Shown here: piece after piece, positions 9,632-46,082 of the stretch
Layout: each line of letters begins with the position of its first letter
Numbering within the stretch: position 1 is the first letter of the stretch
Assembly: GCA_028690585.1 (NCBI GenBank)
Contig: JAQVAZ010000001.1
Coordinates: 129,964-193,963, forward strand
Direction of reading: 5' to 3'
Length of the DNA stretch: 64,000 nucleotides
Source of the DNA: Candidatus Altimarinota bacterium
GTDB taxonomy: Bacteria; Patescibacteriota; Gracilibacteria; JAHISY01
Translations under genes and position numbers: made by a program
The notes under the pieces: generated by a model
What the model saw: the letters and a program-made list of their open reading frames with translations, nothing else
The model's database searches: none
Told to the model about the DNA's origin: nothing

Positions 9632-9660
9632 GTCATTCCTGCGAAGGCAGGAATCCAGAA
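9632..9660. repeat. TCATTCCTGC/GCAGGAATCC repeat
   Basis: Hairpin TTCCTGC-GAAG-GCAGGAA inside the conserved frame GTCAT...ATCCAGAA. Relatives at 9997, 15775, 42052, 58099 and 61037 have different but matching arms. Confidence 0.8.
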
Positions 9661-9685
9661 AGAATTATAAAGTTGGCATAAGAGG

Positions 9686-9991
9686 TTACAAATTCTCGAA
9701 TAACTTTGGGTAAAGATCTTCCCAGCTGGGATTGTCTTTTTCTATTAGGTTAATTTTCCATTCACGCTTCCATACTTTGAGTTGCTTCTCGCGCTGAATT
9801 GCCTCATCTACATTACCAAATTCTTCGTAATAAACTAGCTGATTTACTTTATATTTCTGAGTAAAACCTTTCCTCTTTCCCTCTTTATGTTGCGAAACTC
9901 TTGCTTGTAAATCACTCGTAATTCCGATGTAGAGAGTGGCATTTTTACCACTCGTCAGAATATAAACGCAATAGATTTTTTCTTCTCTCAT
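9686..9991 (-). CDS. GIY-YIG nuclease-like protein
   Basis: 101 residues, the single-domain UvrC-N type. The motif is YCVYILTSGKNATLYIGITSDLQARVSQHKEG, with Tyr pairs and the catalytic Arg, then YYEEFGNVDEAIQREKQLKVWKREWK. Such proteins are common in small genomes; the substrate is unknown. It overlaps the end of the pseudouridine synthase gene and would be translated after it. Confidence 0.85.
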   Translation of the reverse strand: MREEKIYCVYILTSGKNATLYIGITSDLQARVSQHKEGKRKGFTQKYKVNQLVYYEEFGNVDEAIQREKQLKVWKREWKINLIEKDNPSWEDLYPKLFENL

Positions 9992-10830
9992 TTTTTCTGG
10001 ATCCCAGCTTTCGCTGGGATGACAACGACTTCCATCTCCTGTGGTAAATCCGCGTGGAATTTGTATTTCAAAATTTCTAAATCACTCGCATGCAGCAGCA
10101 TTCTACCGCTGCCGCCATTTCCATAAATCTCATCTCCCACTACTGGGAAACCGATAGAAGCGAGATGAATGCGAATCTGATGCATTCTGCCTGTGAGAAT
10201 TTTCACTTCCAGCAAAGCGTTTTTACCAAGTTTCTTTACCAACTTCCAATGGGTTTCCGCACTGAAACCTTTTTCACTAATTCTCATCTGCTTATCATGC
10301 TTCTCGAGTTTGCTGATGATTTCTCCTTCAGTTTCTTTTGGAATTCCTTCCACCACTGCATAATAAGTTTTCTTCACGCGGCGCTTGCGGAATTCATCTT
10401 CGAGTTTTCGCGCAGCATTCGCATTCTTCGCAAAAATCACCACTCCGCTGGTAGCTTTATCAATGCGGTGAATTACAACCAGCGAGAGTTTCAGTAGCTT
10501 CTCCGCAGCTTCGCGCAAAGTATTTCCATGGGTGGCAACTCCCGCATGCATCGTGATACCACTGCGTTTATTGAAAGCAATCAAATCCTTATCTTCAAAC
10601 AAAATCTCACAGCCAGTCAGCAAACCGAAATTTTTCTGCGCATCAGGCAAGAAAATTTCCACACTGCTACCAGCCGGAATATCGCTATCGGCTTTCACGG
10701 GTTTGCTGGCGACTTTGATTTCTTTCTTCCGAAAAAGTTTCTGGAGGAAACCTCTGCGAATAAAAGGTAATGATTCACTGCAGAATCTCTCAGCGCGGAT
10801 TTTGCGGTTGGTGGTAAAAGTGAATTTCAT
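9988..10830 (-). CDS. RluA-family pseudouridine synthase
   Basis: 280 residues. An S4-like N-terminus (RRGFLQKLFRKKEIKV) precedes the catalytic domain with HRIDKATSGV, where Asp 124 is the nucleophile, and LLEVKILTGRMHQIRIHLASIGFPVVGDEIYG. It isomerises uridine in rRNA or tRNA; the exact site is unknown (RluC/RluD class). The last residues VIPAKAGIQKK are translated from a TCATCCCAGC palindromic repeat, which also provides the stop. Confidence 0.9.
   Translation of the reverse strand: MKFTFTTNRKIRAERFCSESLPFIRRGFLQKLFRKKEIKVASKPVKADSDIPAGSSVEIFLPDAQKNFGLLTGCEILFEDKDLIAFNKRSGITMHAGVATHGNTLREAAEKLLKLSLVVIHRIDKATSGVVIFAKNANAARKLEDEFRKRRVKKTYYAVVEGIPKETEGEIISKLEKHDKQMRISEKGFSAETHWKLVKKLGKNALLEVKILTGRMHQIRIHLASIGFPVVGDEIYGNGGSGRMLLHASDLEILKYKFHADLPQEMEVVVIPAKAGIQKK
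9997..10024 (-). repeat. palindromic repeat forming a protein C-terminus
   Basis: Minus strand GTCATCCCAGC-GAAA-GCTGGGATCCAGAA lies in frame at the end of the pseudouridine synthase gene and encodes VIPAKAGIQ. Confidence 0.85.
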
Positions 10831-10900
10831 AGGTAAAGCTTTCCAATTTTACGCTAAATCAGTAAAATCCCCGCATCATTCGGAAATATTGGGGAGGCAA

Positions 10901-10965
10901 TCCCGCTTAGCGGGACTTCGCTTCACTCAGGTGGTAAGGCACCCCGCCTTGGCGGGGCATCGGGG
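10901..10965 (+). repeat. tRNA-Gln-like fragment with two palindromes
   Basis: TCCCGCTTAGCGGGA (10901-10915) is followed by GGTGGTAAGGCA, which equals the D-arm of the tRNA-Gln at 11390, then CCCCGCCTTGGCGGGG (10942-10957) where the anticodon arm should be, then CATCGGGG as in the tRNA variable region. It is the left outlier of the array at 11216. Confidence 0.75.
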
Positions 10966-10978
10966 TAAAACTATTTGA

Positions 10979-11227
10979 ATGCACTTTGTTTATATTTTAC
11001 AAAGCGATAAAGATAAAAAATTTTATATCGGGCAAACAAATAATATTGAGGCAAGATTAAAAAGGCATAATACTGGGCAAGTGCTTTCTACAAAACACAG
11101 AATTCCTTTACAATTAATCCACTTTGAAAAATTCGTAACCCGAAGTGAGGCGATGCGAAGAGAGAAATATATGAAATCTTTGAAAGGTGGAAACGAATTT
11201 GAGAAAATCTTAAAACATTGGGATTAG
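10979..11227 (+). CDS. GIY-YIG nuclease-like protein
   Basis: 82 residues: HFVYILQSDKDKKFYIGQTNNIEARLKRHNTG is a GIY-YIG core with the conserved Arg, and EAMRREKYMKSLKGG follows. The gene lies between two tRNA-Gln-like repeat fragments, and its last codons HWD and stop are formed by the first bases of the downstream repeat. TAAAAC ends 7 nt before ATG. The position suggests it moved together with, or helped create, the tRNA-like repeats; this is inference. Confidence 0.85.
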   Translation: MHFVYILQSDKDKKFYIGQTNNIEARLKRHNTGQVLSTKHRIPLQLIHFEKFVTRSEAMRREKYMKSLKGGNEFEKILKHWD

Positions 11228-11386
11228 CCAAGTAGTAAGGCACCCCGCCTTGGCGGGGCATCGGGGCTCGAATCCGCTAAAACAAAAGGGAGATTTTCTA
11301 CATTGGGGATTAGCCAAGTGGTAAGGCACCCCGCCTTGGCGGGGCATCGGGGCTCGAATCCGCTAAAACAAAAGGGAGATTTTCTA
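11216..11386 (+). repeat. two tandem 85-86 bp tRNA-Gln-like units
   Basis: Each unit starts CATTGGGGATTAGCC (the first has one G fewer), continues AAGTGGTAAGGCA as in the real tRNA-Gln, then has CCCCGCCTTGGCGGGG (11243-11258, 11329-11344) in place of the anticodon stem-loop, then CATCGGGG and CTCGAATCC resembling the T-arm, then a shared AAACAAAAGGGAG tail. The real tRNA at 11390 is the third member in register. The units lack a 3' acceptor strand and cannot form charged tRNAs. Confidence 0.85.
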
Positions 11387-11389
11387 CAT

Positions 11390-11463
11390 TGGGGATTAGC
11401 CAAGTGGTAAGGCAGCGGGTTCTGGTCCCGCCATCGGGGGTTCGAATCCCTCATCCCCAACCA
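11390..11463 (+). tRNA. tRNA-Gln (CTG)
   Basis: 74 nt with encoded CCA. Acceptor TGGGGAT pairs with ATCCCCA; D-arm GCC...GGC; anticodon stem GCGGG/CCCGC with loop TTCTGGT (anticodon CTG); T-loop TTCGAAT. Discriminator A. It reads CAG codons. Confidence 0.93.
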
Positions 11464-11530: not shown

Positions 11531-12655
11531 ATGACTTTTGAGGAATTAGCGGAGGCCTTAGGGATTCGAAACAAGACTCTTCGAATGGCTTTTTCGCGCC
11601 ATAGACTCTCTATCGGTAAGCCTGCCGATATCCAGAGTTTCCTCACTCAGAGATTCAGTGGAAGACGCAGACACCGCGCTGCGCGGCCACAGCAAACTGC
11701 GAAACATCTCGAGAAGTGGCGGTTTGTGAAGAAGACAAAAGTGGAAGCAACTCCCCCACCAACTGAAAAGATTACGCGAGATACGGAGATGGAAGCAAGG
11801 ATTAAGACTTTCGAGGAGGAAGTTATTTCCTTACAAACGAAAATCTCTACAACAGAAACAAAGCTGCAAGAAAAAGATGTGAGGATTCAGCAGCTAGAGA
11901 CAGAGAAGCTAAAACTAGAGGAGGCAAATGCCAGCCTAGAGAAAACCAATCAGGCCTTGAAAATGCAGCTATCAGCAGTGGAATCCATCAGCCAAGCGCA
12001 AGGCAAGATTATCGAGAATCTGAGAGAGAAAAAATCTGAGAAAAAAGACGAGACAAAAAATCCAGTAGAAAAATCTACAGAAGCGAATCAAGAAAGCTTA
12101 GCTGAGGCAAATGTAGAGACACCCCGGCGGGGTGTCTCTACTCCCGAGGGGATTCCAACAGAATCTGCGGAAGAAACACCTAAAGTAATCCCCGCGGAAG
12201 AAGCAGTAGTGAAATCCGAGGAGAAAGCAGCAACCGAAACACCTACGGCAGCAGAGGTTTTCTCGGAAATCCCAGATGAAAGGAATCCAGAAAAAGAAAA
12301 ACAAACTGAGGTTGAGGCTGCGGAAATTTCTCAAACTACAGGCAATGAAACTCCAACTGCGAAAGAAGTGAAAAGTGAGGAAACTCCTACCATCTCCGAG
12401 GCGACAAAAGCTGCGGAAAATAAAACCGAAACCACAGAGACAGAAGCAGGAGAAAATTCCACAAAGGAAAAAGCAGTCTCAGACTCCCCTGCGGTAGAAA
12501 CAGAAAACGCAGAAACGAATCAGAAAAACGTAGAGACTCCCCATTGGGGAGTCTCTACTATCGCGGAAGTAGCAGCAGAGGAAAAAGTGGAAATAGAGAC
12601 TCCAGCGGAGGCGCGAAGTGAGACAGTGGAATCTCCTGCGGAGGTGGCGCAGTAA
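11531..12655 (+). CDS. coiled-coil protein with disordered Glu/Thr-rich tail
   Basis: 374 residues. Residues 1-40 (TFEELAEALGIRNKTLRMAFSRHRL) look like a small helix-turn-helix; 40-65 is Arg-rich. Residues 80-170 form a clear coiled coil. The last 200 residues are Glu/Thr/Ala-rich and probably disordered. Two GTAGAGAC palindromes are embedded in frame and encode NVETPRRGVST (about residue 195) and NVETPHWGVST (about residue 334). A DNA-binding or scaffold role is possible; no family is recognised. Confidence 0.6.
   Translation: MTFEELAEALGIRNKTLRMAFSRHRLSIGKPADIQSFLTQRFSGRRRHRAARPQQTAKHLEKWRFVKKTKVEATPPPTEKITRDTEMEARIKTFEEEVISLQTKISTTETKLQEKDVRIQQLETEKLKLEEANASLEKTNQALKMQLSAVESISQAQGKIIENLREKKSEKKDETKNPVEKSTEANQESLAEANVETPRRGVSTPEGIPTESAEETPKVIPAEEAVVKSEEKAATETPTAAEVFSEIPDERNPEKEKQTEVEAAEISQTTGNETPTAKEVKSEETPTISEATKAAENKTETTETEAGENSTKEKAVSDSPAVETENAETNQKNVETPHWGVSTIAEVAAEEKVEIETPAEARSETVESPAEVAQ
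12113..12141. repeat. GTAGAGAC-ACCCC palindrome in coding sequence
   Basis: 13-nt arms GTAGAGACACCCC and GGGGTGTCTCTAC with loop GGC. The inner arm base is A/T where other copies have G/C or T/A. Confidence 0.9.
12530..12558. repeat. GTAGAGAC-TCCCC palindrome in coding sequence
   Basis: 13-nt arms GTAGAGACTCCCC and GGGGAGTCTCTAC with loop ATT, in the same reading frame as the copy at 12113. Confidence 0.9.
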
Positions 12656-25482: not shown

Positions 25483-25487
25483 TTCTT

Positions 25488-25567
25488 CGTTCCGATTTCA
25501 TCGGAACTTCGAATGGCACGCCACTACTTCGAAGCTCGAAGAGCGAAGAAGTAAGCCATTTTTTTAT
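25488..25567 (+). terminator. palindromic repeats and terminator after tRNA-Thr
   Basis: Hairpin TTCCGAT-TTC-ATCGGAA, then AATGGC paired at a distance with GCCATT and seven T, enclosing TTCGAAGCTCGAA. A further palindrome, TCCTTCG...CGAAGAAGGA, fills 25602-25660. No gene is seen in 25483-25712. Confidence 0.6.
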
Positions 25568-40237: not shown

Positions 40238-40384
40238 ATGAGTAACATCTATCGTAGAGGAAAAACTTTCCTAATCACTAAAGATTCCCAAGCGATTGGT
40301 GTAGGAATTTTAATTAAAGAAAAAGATTGGCTAGCGGTGAGATTCCCCCTGCCTGCCGGCAGACAGGCTTGGCCCGAATCATGA
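40238..40384 (+). CDS. small protein, copy A of a decayed repeat
   Basis: 48 residues: MSNIYRRGKTFLITKDSQA, then IGVGILIKEKDWLAVRFPL, then PAGRQAWPES. The last ten residues come from a palindrome (40349-40368) inserted after AVRFP. A second copy of the core follows at 40432 with a stop. No family is recognised; whether it is expressed is unclear. Confidence 0.35.
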   Translation: MSNIYRRGKTFLITKDSQAIGVGILIKEKDWLAVRFPLPAGRQAWPES

Positions 40385-40389
40385 TTTTA

Positions 40390-40655
40390 AAAAAGCTAGC
40401 GGTGAGATTCCCCTTGGCCTATGGGGTTGAGAAAATCTATCGTAGAGAAAAAAATTTACTAATCACTAAAGATGCCCAATCGATTGGTGAAGGAATTTTA
40501 ATTAAAGAAAACTATTGACTAGCGGTGAGATTCCCCTTGGCTAATCATGATTTTGGAAAAGCTAGTGGTGAGATTCCCCTTGATTATGTAGGAATCAAAT
40601 ATATAGCGGTGAGACCTGTCCTGCATAGCTTCAGCGAAACGGGATTCCCCTTAGA
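40390..40655 (+). pseudogene. decayed copies of the AVRFPL unit with tRNA-Glu-like sequence
   Basis: Copy B (40432-40518) reads KIYRREKNLLITKDAQS, then IGEGILIKENY and a TGA where copy A has Trp. The short unit CTAGCGGTGAGATTCCCCTT occurs four times here (near 40395, 40518, 40561, 40602) and once in copy A. GATTCCCCTTGGCC inside it equals 14 nt of the tRNA-Glu T-arm and acceptor. The unit at 40602 is split by a ~28-nt palindrome starting CCTGTCCTGC. Confidence 0.6.
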
Positions 40656-40663
40656 TTATTTTC

Positions 40664-46026: not shown

Positions 46027-46070
46027 AAATCACGGGTTTGTAGTCCGCCGTGGCGGACGCGCCCTTCACA
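46027..46070 (+). repeat. partial tRNA-Val copy with D-arm replaced
   Basis: AAATCACGGGTTTGTAG (46027-46043) and CGCGCCCTTCACA (46058-46070) are identical to the real tRNA-Val locus 49-50 nt downstream. Between them TCCGCCGTGGCGGA replaces CTCAGTTGGTTAGAG, exactly the D-arm. The copy ends just after the anticodon. Confidence 0.9.
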
Positions 46071-46082
46071 AAATTAAATCAC

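Follow-up and report, generated by a model that had tools for sequence, protein, structure and literature searches.

A candidate mobile element with a minimal GIY-YIG nuclease inside bacterial tRNA genes

The tRNA-Gln array and its nuclease gene

The DNA analyzed here (the window, 64,000 nucleotides) comes from the 1.05-Mb draft genome of a Candidatus Altimarinota bacterium. Read along the plus strand, a divergent RluA gene is followed by a promoter, a modified tRNA-Gln copy, a GIY-YIG nuclease gene, two 86-bp units and an intact tRNA-Gln(CTG). Three modified tRNA-Gln copies are found 5′ of the intact gene, and the GIY-YIG gene lies between copies 1 and 2. The features are as follows.

10840–10868, plus strand: native tRNA promoter TTTCCA-17-TAAAAT, predicted driver of the whole array (promoter scan; leader alignment with the empty ortholog L014)
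10890–10965, plus strand: modified tRNA-Gln copy 1, with 5′ half, palindrome and 8-nt 3′ stub CATCGGGG; begins at tRNA nt 1 (10890, TGGGGAGGC)
10901–10915: second palindrome, TCCCGCTTAGCGGGA, which interrupts the D-arm region of copy 1
10942–10957: palindrome 1, in the anticodon-arm position (pattern search)
10979–11227, plus strand: GIY-YIG nuclease gene, 82 aa, UPF0213-like, catalytic domain only (PF01541; PDB 1ywl/1zg2; AlphaFold)
11219–11276, plus strand: modified tRNA-Gln copy 2, with 5′ half minus one G, palindrome and a stub reaching the T-loop
11243–11258: palindrome 2 (pattern search)
11277–11303, plus strand: element-borne leader of unit 3, with -10-like CTAAAAC..., a putative promoter (sequence)
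11304–11362, plus strand: modified tRNA-Gln copy 3, a GIY-less unit
11329–11344: palindrome 3 (pattern search)
11363–11389, plus strand: element-borne leader of the intact tRNA (leader comparison)
11390–11463, plus strand: intact tRNA-Gln(CTG) (ARAGORN; Rfam 63.3 bits)

The anticodon arm (17 nt; tRNA nt 26–42) is absent from all three copies, and CCCCGCCTTGGCGGGG stands exactly in its place. With up to 2 mismatches allowed, this pattern occurs in the 64-kb window only as palindromes 1 to 3 (shuffle expectation 0, n = 100). Each 86-bp unit consists of a 5′ half, the CCCCGCCTTGGCGGGG palindrome, a stub and a leader, and the intact tRNA-Gln follows as the last member, in register and at the same 86-bp spacing. 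An earlier note, made from the letters of this DNA, had placed the units, the palindromes, the intact tRNA and the nuclease gene correctly and had recognized the exchange of the 17-nt arm. What it took for an outlier beside two tandem units is a third modified unit, which starts at tRNA nt 1. It had also described a variable region and part of a T-arm as retained; the 3′ part is truncated, inside the T-loop in copies 2 and 3 and after CATCGGGG in copy 1. D-arm palindromes like that of copy 1 are also present in L013, L020 and L127. An Rfam scan of the window found four tRNAs and nothing else, with no group I or II intron RNA structure. The GIY-YIG gene is the sole ORF between the tRNA copies, where neither an integrase gene nor a Y1 (HUH) transposase gene is found.

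The 82-aa ORF encodes a GIY-YIG catalytic domain (PF01541, E 8.9e-17) with a short tail, and no DNA-binding domain is recognizable in it. A full-length protein of the kind of the phage enzyme SegB has a C-terminal DNA-binding part, an architecture that the ORF does not share. Among 21 relatives, the active-site-type residues Y5, Y16, G18, H30 and E62 are invariant and R26 is near-invariant. The closest proteins in sequence and fold are the small GIY-YIG proteins of UPF0213/COG2827 (PDB 1ywl, 1zg2); their Bacillota members, the nearest sequence relatives outside the group, differ in lying in the yabA-rsmI operon without an annotated tRNA. The nearest named relatives belong to Candidatus Moranbacteria. 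In fold comparisons of the AlphaFold model (pLDDT 93), UPF0213 ranks first and Slx1 second, both ahead of I-TevI. Slx1 is a branched-DNA nuclease, and the likeness of the model to it would fit an enzyme that cuts hairpins or junctions. Judged by the median dN/dS of 0.09 among Flavobacterium copies, the GIY gene is under purifying selection.

The stop codon of the gene, TAG at 11225–11227, is made from tRNA-derived sequence, as the earlier note had pointed out. The ORF likewise ends inside the tRNA in 16 of 23 relatives with an intact tRNA directly downstream, often at U8-A9-G10 or in the D-loop. Maturation of the tRNA by RNase P would then strip off this codon and might in this way restrain expression.

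A second array, at tRNA-Met, is found in the same genome about 0.7 kb past the end of the window (L080:1444-1972; contig C6, ~194.65–195.18 kb). Its order is that of the tRNA-Gln array: a modified copy, a GIY-YIG gene, two identical 82-bp units and the intact tRNA-Met, with the palindrome TCCCGATTAAAATCGGGA in the anticodon-arm position. Among 288 genomes of the class, 66 yielded GIY-YIG matches, about 110 in all, and the flanks of these matches were examined. A tRNA lies no more than 300 bp away on the same strand in 70 of the 87 related genes with sufficient flank, and on the opposite strand in 1. Density of tRNAs is 1.8 per kb at 0–200 bp from the gene compared to 0.014 per kb at 800–1200 bp, and that of GC-rich palindromes falls with distance from 3.3 to 0.5 per kb. 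With the anticodon arm masked and a score of at least 30 required, a match to the intact tRNA is found on the far side of the GIY gene in 31 of 74 cases, compared to 2 of 74 at a control distance. The pairing of GIY-YIG genes with tRNA-like units, which the earlier note proposed to look for in relatives, is present across isotypes and phyla. Mixed-strain assembly, which the same note had considered as a source of the repeats, is very unlikely, because independently assembled genomes carry the same arrangement.

A derived clade in family f5 lies 100–200 bp 3′ of tRNAs of many isotypes, where a tRNA-copy pattern is not clear; it may be a different class. The GIY clade of L145, L157, L158, L160 and L161 is found 100–200 bp 3′ of Glu, Arg, Tyr, Thr and Gly tRNAs, after hairpins of the CCACGAAG..CTTCATGGCA type, and is probably a generalist class. 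In the window, a CCATTCTTCG..CGAATGGCACGCCA hairpin at 25483–25560, behind tRNA-Thr(CGT), resembles the tRNA-GIY spacers of the f5 clade.

Empty and occupied tRNA genes

The distribution of the element in Flavobacterium is patchy, with 17 of 121 genomes carrying it in 1–6 tandem copies. At tRNA-Pro(TGG) there is a series of empty (L105, L110), occupied (L059, L095, L096) and GIY-less (L099, L101–L104) alleles, together with tandem alleles that hold 2–6 GIY copies. The intact tRNA-Pro of the occupied loci is identical to that of the empty alleles shown, and the displaced copy alone is altered. The downstream flank of the empty L105 aligns directly after the modified copy of L058/L096 (402 bp, 82.6%, 3.7e-115); the intact tRNA of L058/L096 is followed by a different, element-borne terminator. 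The empty ortholog of the window array, L014, adjoins the same RluA gene (57% amino acid identity), and its leader matches that of copy 1 at 39 of 51 positions (z 6.9), compared to a z of 1.3 against the leader of the intact tRNA. These flank alignments indicate that the native flank remains on the dead copy, while the functional tRNA owes one half and its flank to the element.

On the evidence of the aligned alleles, the element is shown to occupy a fixed position within the tRNA gene, here called site X (the anticodon arm in Gln), and to bring its own tRNA copy with a palindrome in place of X. Two types are distinguished. In type B, which includes the window, the modified copy lies upstream and the intact tRNA downstream of the GIY gene, and the element is situated between the native 5′ half and X. 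The order is then native promoter, 5′ half, palindrome, stub, GIY, element leader, new 5′ half, X and native 3′ half. Type A is the reverse, with the element between X and the native 3′ half, so that it provides a new 3′ half and a terminator. Alignment shows a complete tRNA rebuilt in either case, with the palindrome-marked copy as the displaced junction. For the window, the 5′ half of the intact tRNA-Gln would have come from the element, its anticodon arm and 3′ half being native.

Passive duplication and decay at a tRNA hot spot, with the GIY gene there by chance, would account for the degenerate and GIY-less units, which are common (L013, L020, L099–L104). For these the earlier note's idea of decay products stands, but intact GIY-bearing units with conserved palindromes are found repeatedly in distant genomes. 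As a general account, passive decay is scarcely credible given the strand-specific adjacency and far-side tRNA copies described above, the exact and recurring site X and the purifying selection, and recurrence across phyla contradicts it. It is also quite improbable that the arrays represent host-beneficial tRNA amplification in the manner of SegB, with the nuclease driving tandem duplication for tRNA dose or for surviving tRNA-cutting toxins. Such amplification has a precedent in SegB, including the microhomology between tRNA 5′ and gene 3′ ends, and it would explain tandem arrays of up to 6 GIY copies. However, the additional copies are dead tRNAs without an anticodon arm, there is one intact tRNA per array in the examples read, and the distribution is patchy.

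Palindromes at different isotypes

Modified copies are seen at Gln, Met, Gly, Ile, Leu, Pro, Asn, Val, Phe, Trp, Asp and other isotypes. Gln elements of both types swap out the same nt 26–42 (site nt 25/43) in Patescibacteria, Bacteroidota and Ignavibacteriota; the exception is L127, whose palindrome is in the D-arm. The palindrome lies in the anticodon arm in Gln, Met, Pro and Ile, in the D-arm in Patescibacterial Leu, at the D/anticodon junction in Asn and in the T-loop in most Phe. The simple rule that it always takes the place of the anticodon arm is ruled out, as its position depends on isotype. When arms are located by their flanks alone, 26 of 32 are palindromic with a stem of at least 6 bp, compared to 0.8% of shuffles, and compensatory pair changes are found on both sides of the stem. 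Type A palindromes lie further 3′ than those of type B (p 0.007, distinct isotype/position pairs), which is expected if the element must provide the shorter missing half.

Since the palindromes form stable hairpins and the units lie within the likely transcript, the modified units might act at the RNA level as processing punctuation, as hairpin regulators of the nuclease mRNA or, as the earlier note had suggested, as a source of decoy tRNA fragments. Hairpin control of homing-endonuclease mRNAs is described for T4 in the cited text (PMC2988022). This role is nevertheless very improbable, decoys included: the units fold no better than shuffles (z 0.27), and the majority of modified copies go unmatched by the Rfam tRNA model (best score 27.8 bits, cut-off 29). 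In type B copies the T-arm and acceptor are without their 3′ half, and the palindrome precedes the gene in type B but follows it in type A.

Some palindromes have a wider distribution. The CCTGCCTGCCGGYAGGCAGG palindrome is dispersed in 9 of 9 Patescibacteria genomes tested, where a reversed-pattern control is absent, and it also occurs away from GIY genes; the CCTGCCTGCC type is a common dispersed repeat of this genome. Modified copies can carry second palindromes in their D- and T-loops. Between the near-identical loci L039 and L040, from close genomes, there are two differences: an additional GIY-less unit upstream, and a newly inserted palindrome of 20 nt, CCTGCCTGCCGGTAGGCAGG, of the type dispersed in the nine genomes, which interrupts the T-loop of one dead tRNA-Gln copy (L040:2240-2310 compared to L039:2240-2300). 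Because this palindrome was gained without insertion of an element, palindromes are able to arrive independently and may constitute a separate mobile layer.

It could be argued from these cases, and from GIY genes that lie between inverted palindromes outside tRNAs, that the palindromes are the true mobile units, REP-like mini-elements that enter tRNA hairpin loops, with the GIY gene as helper or passenger and tRNA duplication as a secondary event. We consider this unlikely, since the palindrome is inserted as one part of a larger whole, together with GIY, a leader or terminator and a tRNA half, and GIY clades follow isotype. Moreover, the Met TCCCGAT..ATCGGGA palindrome is confined to the three Met units in the whole genome and the exact Gln palindrome, within the window, to the array, so a common dispersed repeat is ruled out for the Met palindrome in this genome and for the Gln palindrome within the window.

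Other palindromes occur near tRNAs of the same genome. At 46034–46082 of the window, directly upstream of tRNA-Val(CAC), a GIY-less 49-bp unit has the palindrome TCCGCCGTGGCGGA in the D-arm position. Behind tRNA-Glu(TTC), at 40250–40660, there are several diverged T-arm/acceptor fragments, the palindrome CCTGCCTGCCGGCAGACAGG (40348–40367) and repeated small ORF remnants (YRRGKTFLITKD...). A dispersed palindrome at G000:C6:78296-78315 (L238) lies in a GIY-less 3′ fragment that resembles tRNA-Trp, behind the intact tRNA-Trp.

A probable homing-like element and known systems

In a tree of 153 GIY domains, which is based on only 74 columns and has many unresolved forks, tRNA isotype needs 52 changes compared to 88 when shuffled, and 0 of 200 shuffles were as low. 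The GIY clades follow isotype across Patescibacteria, Bacteroidota and Ignavibacteriota, and the Gln-targeting enzymes of Moranbacteria, other Patescibacteria, Bacteroidota and Ignavibacteriota fall mostly into one group. Isotype-specific clades and a fixed site X are consistent with site-specific cleavage of element-free alleles. The idea that the element came from a phage or plasmid was rejected, as there were no confirmed viral-contig relatives and the matches amounted to distant UPF0213 proteins of the Listeria/Enterococcus type.

The explanation we favor, at a probability of roughly 0.7, is a mobile element aimed at one tRNA isotype, with a minimal GIY-YIG nuclease at its core and a homing-endonuclease-like mode of spread. 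The earlier note's suggestion of a tRNA-associated selfish element has good support in the many isotypes and phyla, the empty and occupied sites, the isotype-specific clades, the tandem copies and the purifying selection. Cleavage by the nuclease would fall in the tRNA gene, at X or close to it. An element-bearing copy would then serve as template for repair, and crossover or one-sided strand invasion on one or the other side of X would bring the element in. Types A and B may then be outcomes of repair to the right or left of X from one donor. In the tRNA copy that the element carries, the palindrome would do away with the cut site and might block re-cutting, and the captured tRNA promoter would transcribe the nuclease gene. 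The rebuilt tRNA offers a complete target once more, so that tandem arrays would form by further insertion or unequal exchange.

A bolder version is possible rather than probable. It supposes a new class of transposition in which an Slx1-like GIY-YIG enzyme acts on DNA hairpins, cutting the extruded arm (anticodon, D or T) of a specific tRNA gene and swapping in a palindromic hairpin. The palindrome would be both element end and immunity mark, and essential tRNA genes would be permanent, self-rebuilding landing pads.

The favored element would show that a selfish gene of about 250 bp without an integrase can reside in the essential single-copy genes of a reduced genome and leave its host alive. 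The same element would also account for tRNA pseudogenes and palindromes beside tRNAs in Patescibacteria and Bacteroidota, and provide a natural set of isotype-specific DNA-targeting nucleases. Cultured Flavobacterium strains such as F. sharifuzzamanii A7.6 carry the element, which leaves the mechanism open to testing.

Free-standing homing endonuclease genes resemble the element in their GIY-YIG domain with conserved active-site-type residues and in a patchy distribution with spread over hosts, as in the Gln clade of several phyla. Canonical homing elements destroy their own target site, whereas the occupied allele here keeps an intact target, so a nuclease that cuts X should cut its own host too. 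The element therefore works like a homing element but is not a proven member of that group. Integrative elements and prophages with tRNA attachment sites enter a tRNA gene and supply the part that restores it. In contrast to these, the present element has no integrase, measures about 300 bp as a whole and leaves a palindrome on the displaced junction.

By analogy of behavior, the nearest known system is SegB, a GIY-YIG homing enzyme whose cleavage sites, in the cited text, lie within tRNA genes and which drives the amplification of tRNA+segB units (PMC13096335). The likeness extends to a nuclease gene tied to many tRNA isotypes, as with segB in phages and other free-standing T-even GIY-YIG homing endonucleases (PMC13096335, PMC2988022), and to tandem tRNA+nuclease repeats with a match between the tRNA 5′ end and the 3′ end of the nuclease gene (PMC13096335). 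SegB differs, however, as a phage enzyme of another GIY-YIG type encoded between tRNAs, while the element described here, whose protein has about 82 aa, lies inside the tRNA gene on bacterial chromosomes. Rebuilding of the tRNA and marking of the displaced copy with a palindrome are not described for SegB in the text cited.

Insertions in the rRNA genes of CPR bacteria, as reported in part of one source, can carry homing nucleases including GIY-YIG and often lie at structural-RNA stem-loops (PMC11270868). They differ in their rRNA location, and the better-known ones are introns with LAGLIDADG enzymes; that part mentions neither gene rebuilding nor palindrome-marked copies. A literature search, with slight coverage of subscription papers and without preprints, gave no description of tRNA-inserted GIY-YIG elements, and the element appears to be an undescribed type.

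REP/RAYT systems and GTAG-tagged REPs, as far as the cited passages go, share with the element short palindromes linked to a nuclease gene, but that gene is a Y1 transposase rather than a GIY-YIG nuclease, and the palindrome here is at a fixed tRNA position (PMC3116915, PMC3733652). Within ORF 11531–12655 of the window, GTAG-tagged palindromes (GTAGAGAC...GTCTCTAC) are read in frame at 12113–12141 and 12530–12558. A second GIY-YIG gene (9686–9991, minus strand) is found at 9635–10020 between inverted VIPAKAGIQ-coding-type palindromes (ATTCCTGCGAAGGCAGGAAT, ATCCCAGCTTTCGCTGGGAT), and an identical arrangement is found at L079 in this genome. This gene may represent a palindrome-bounded sister element outside tRNAs.
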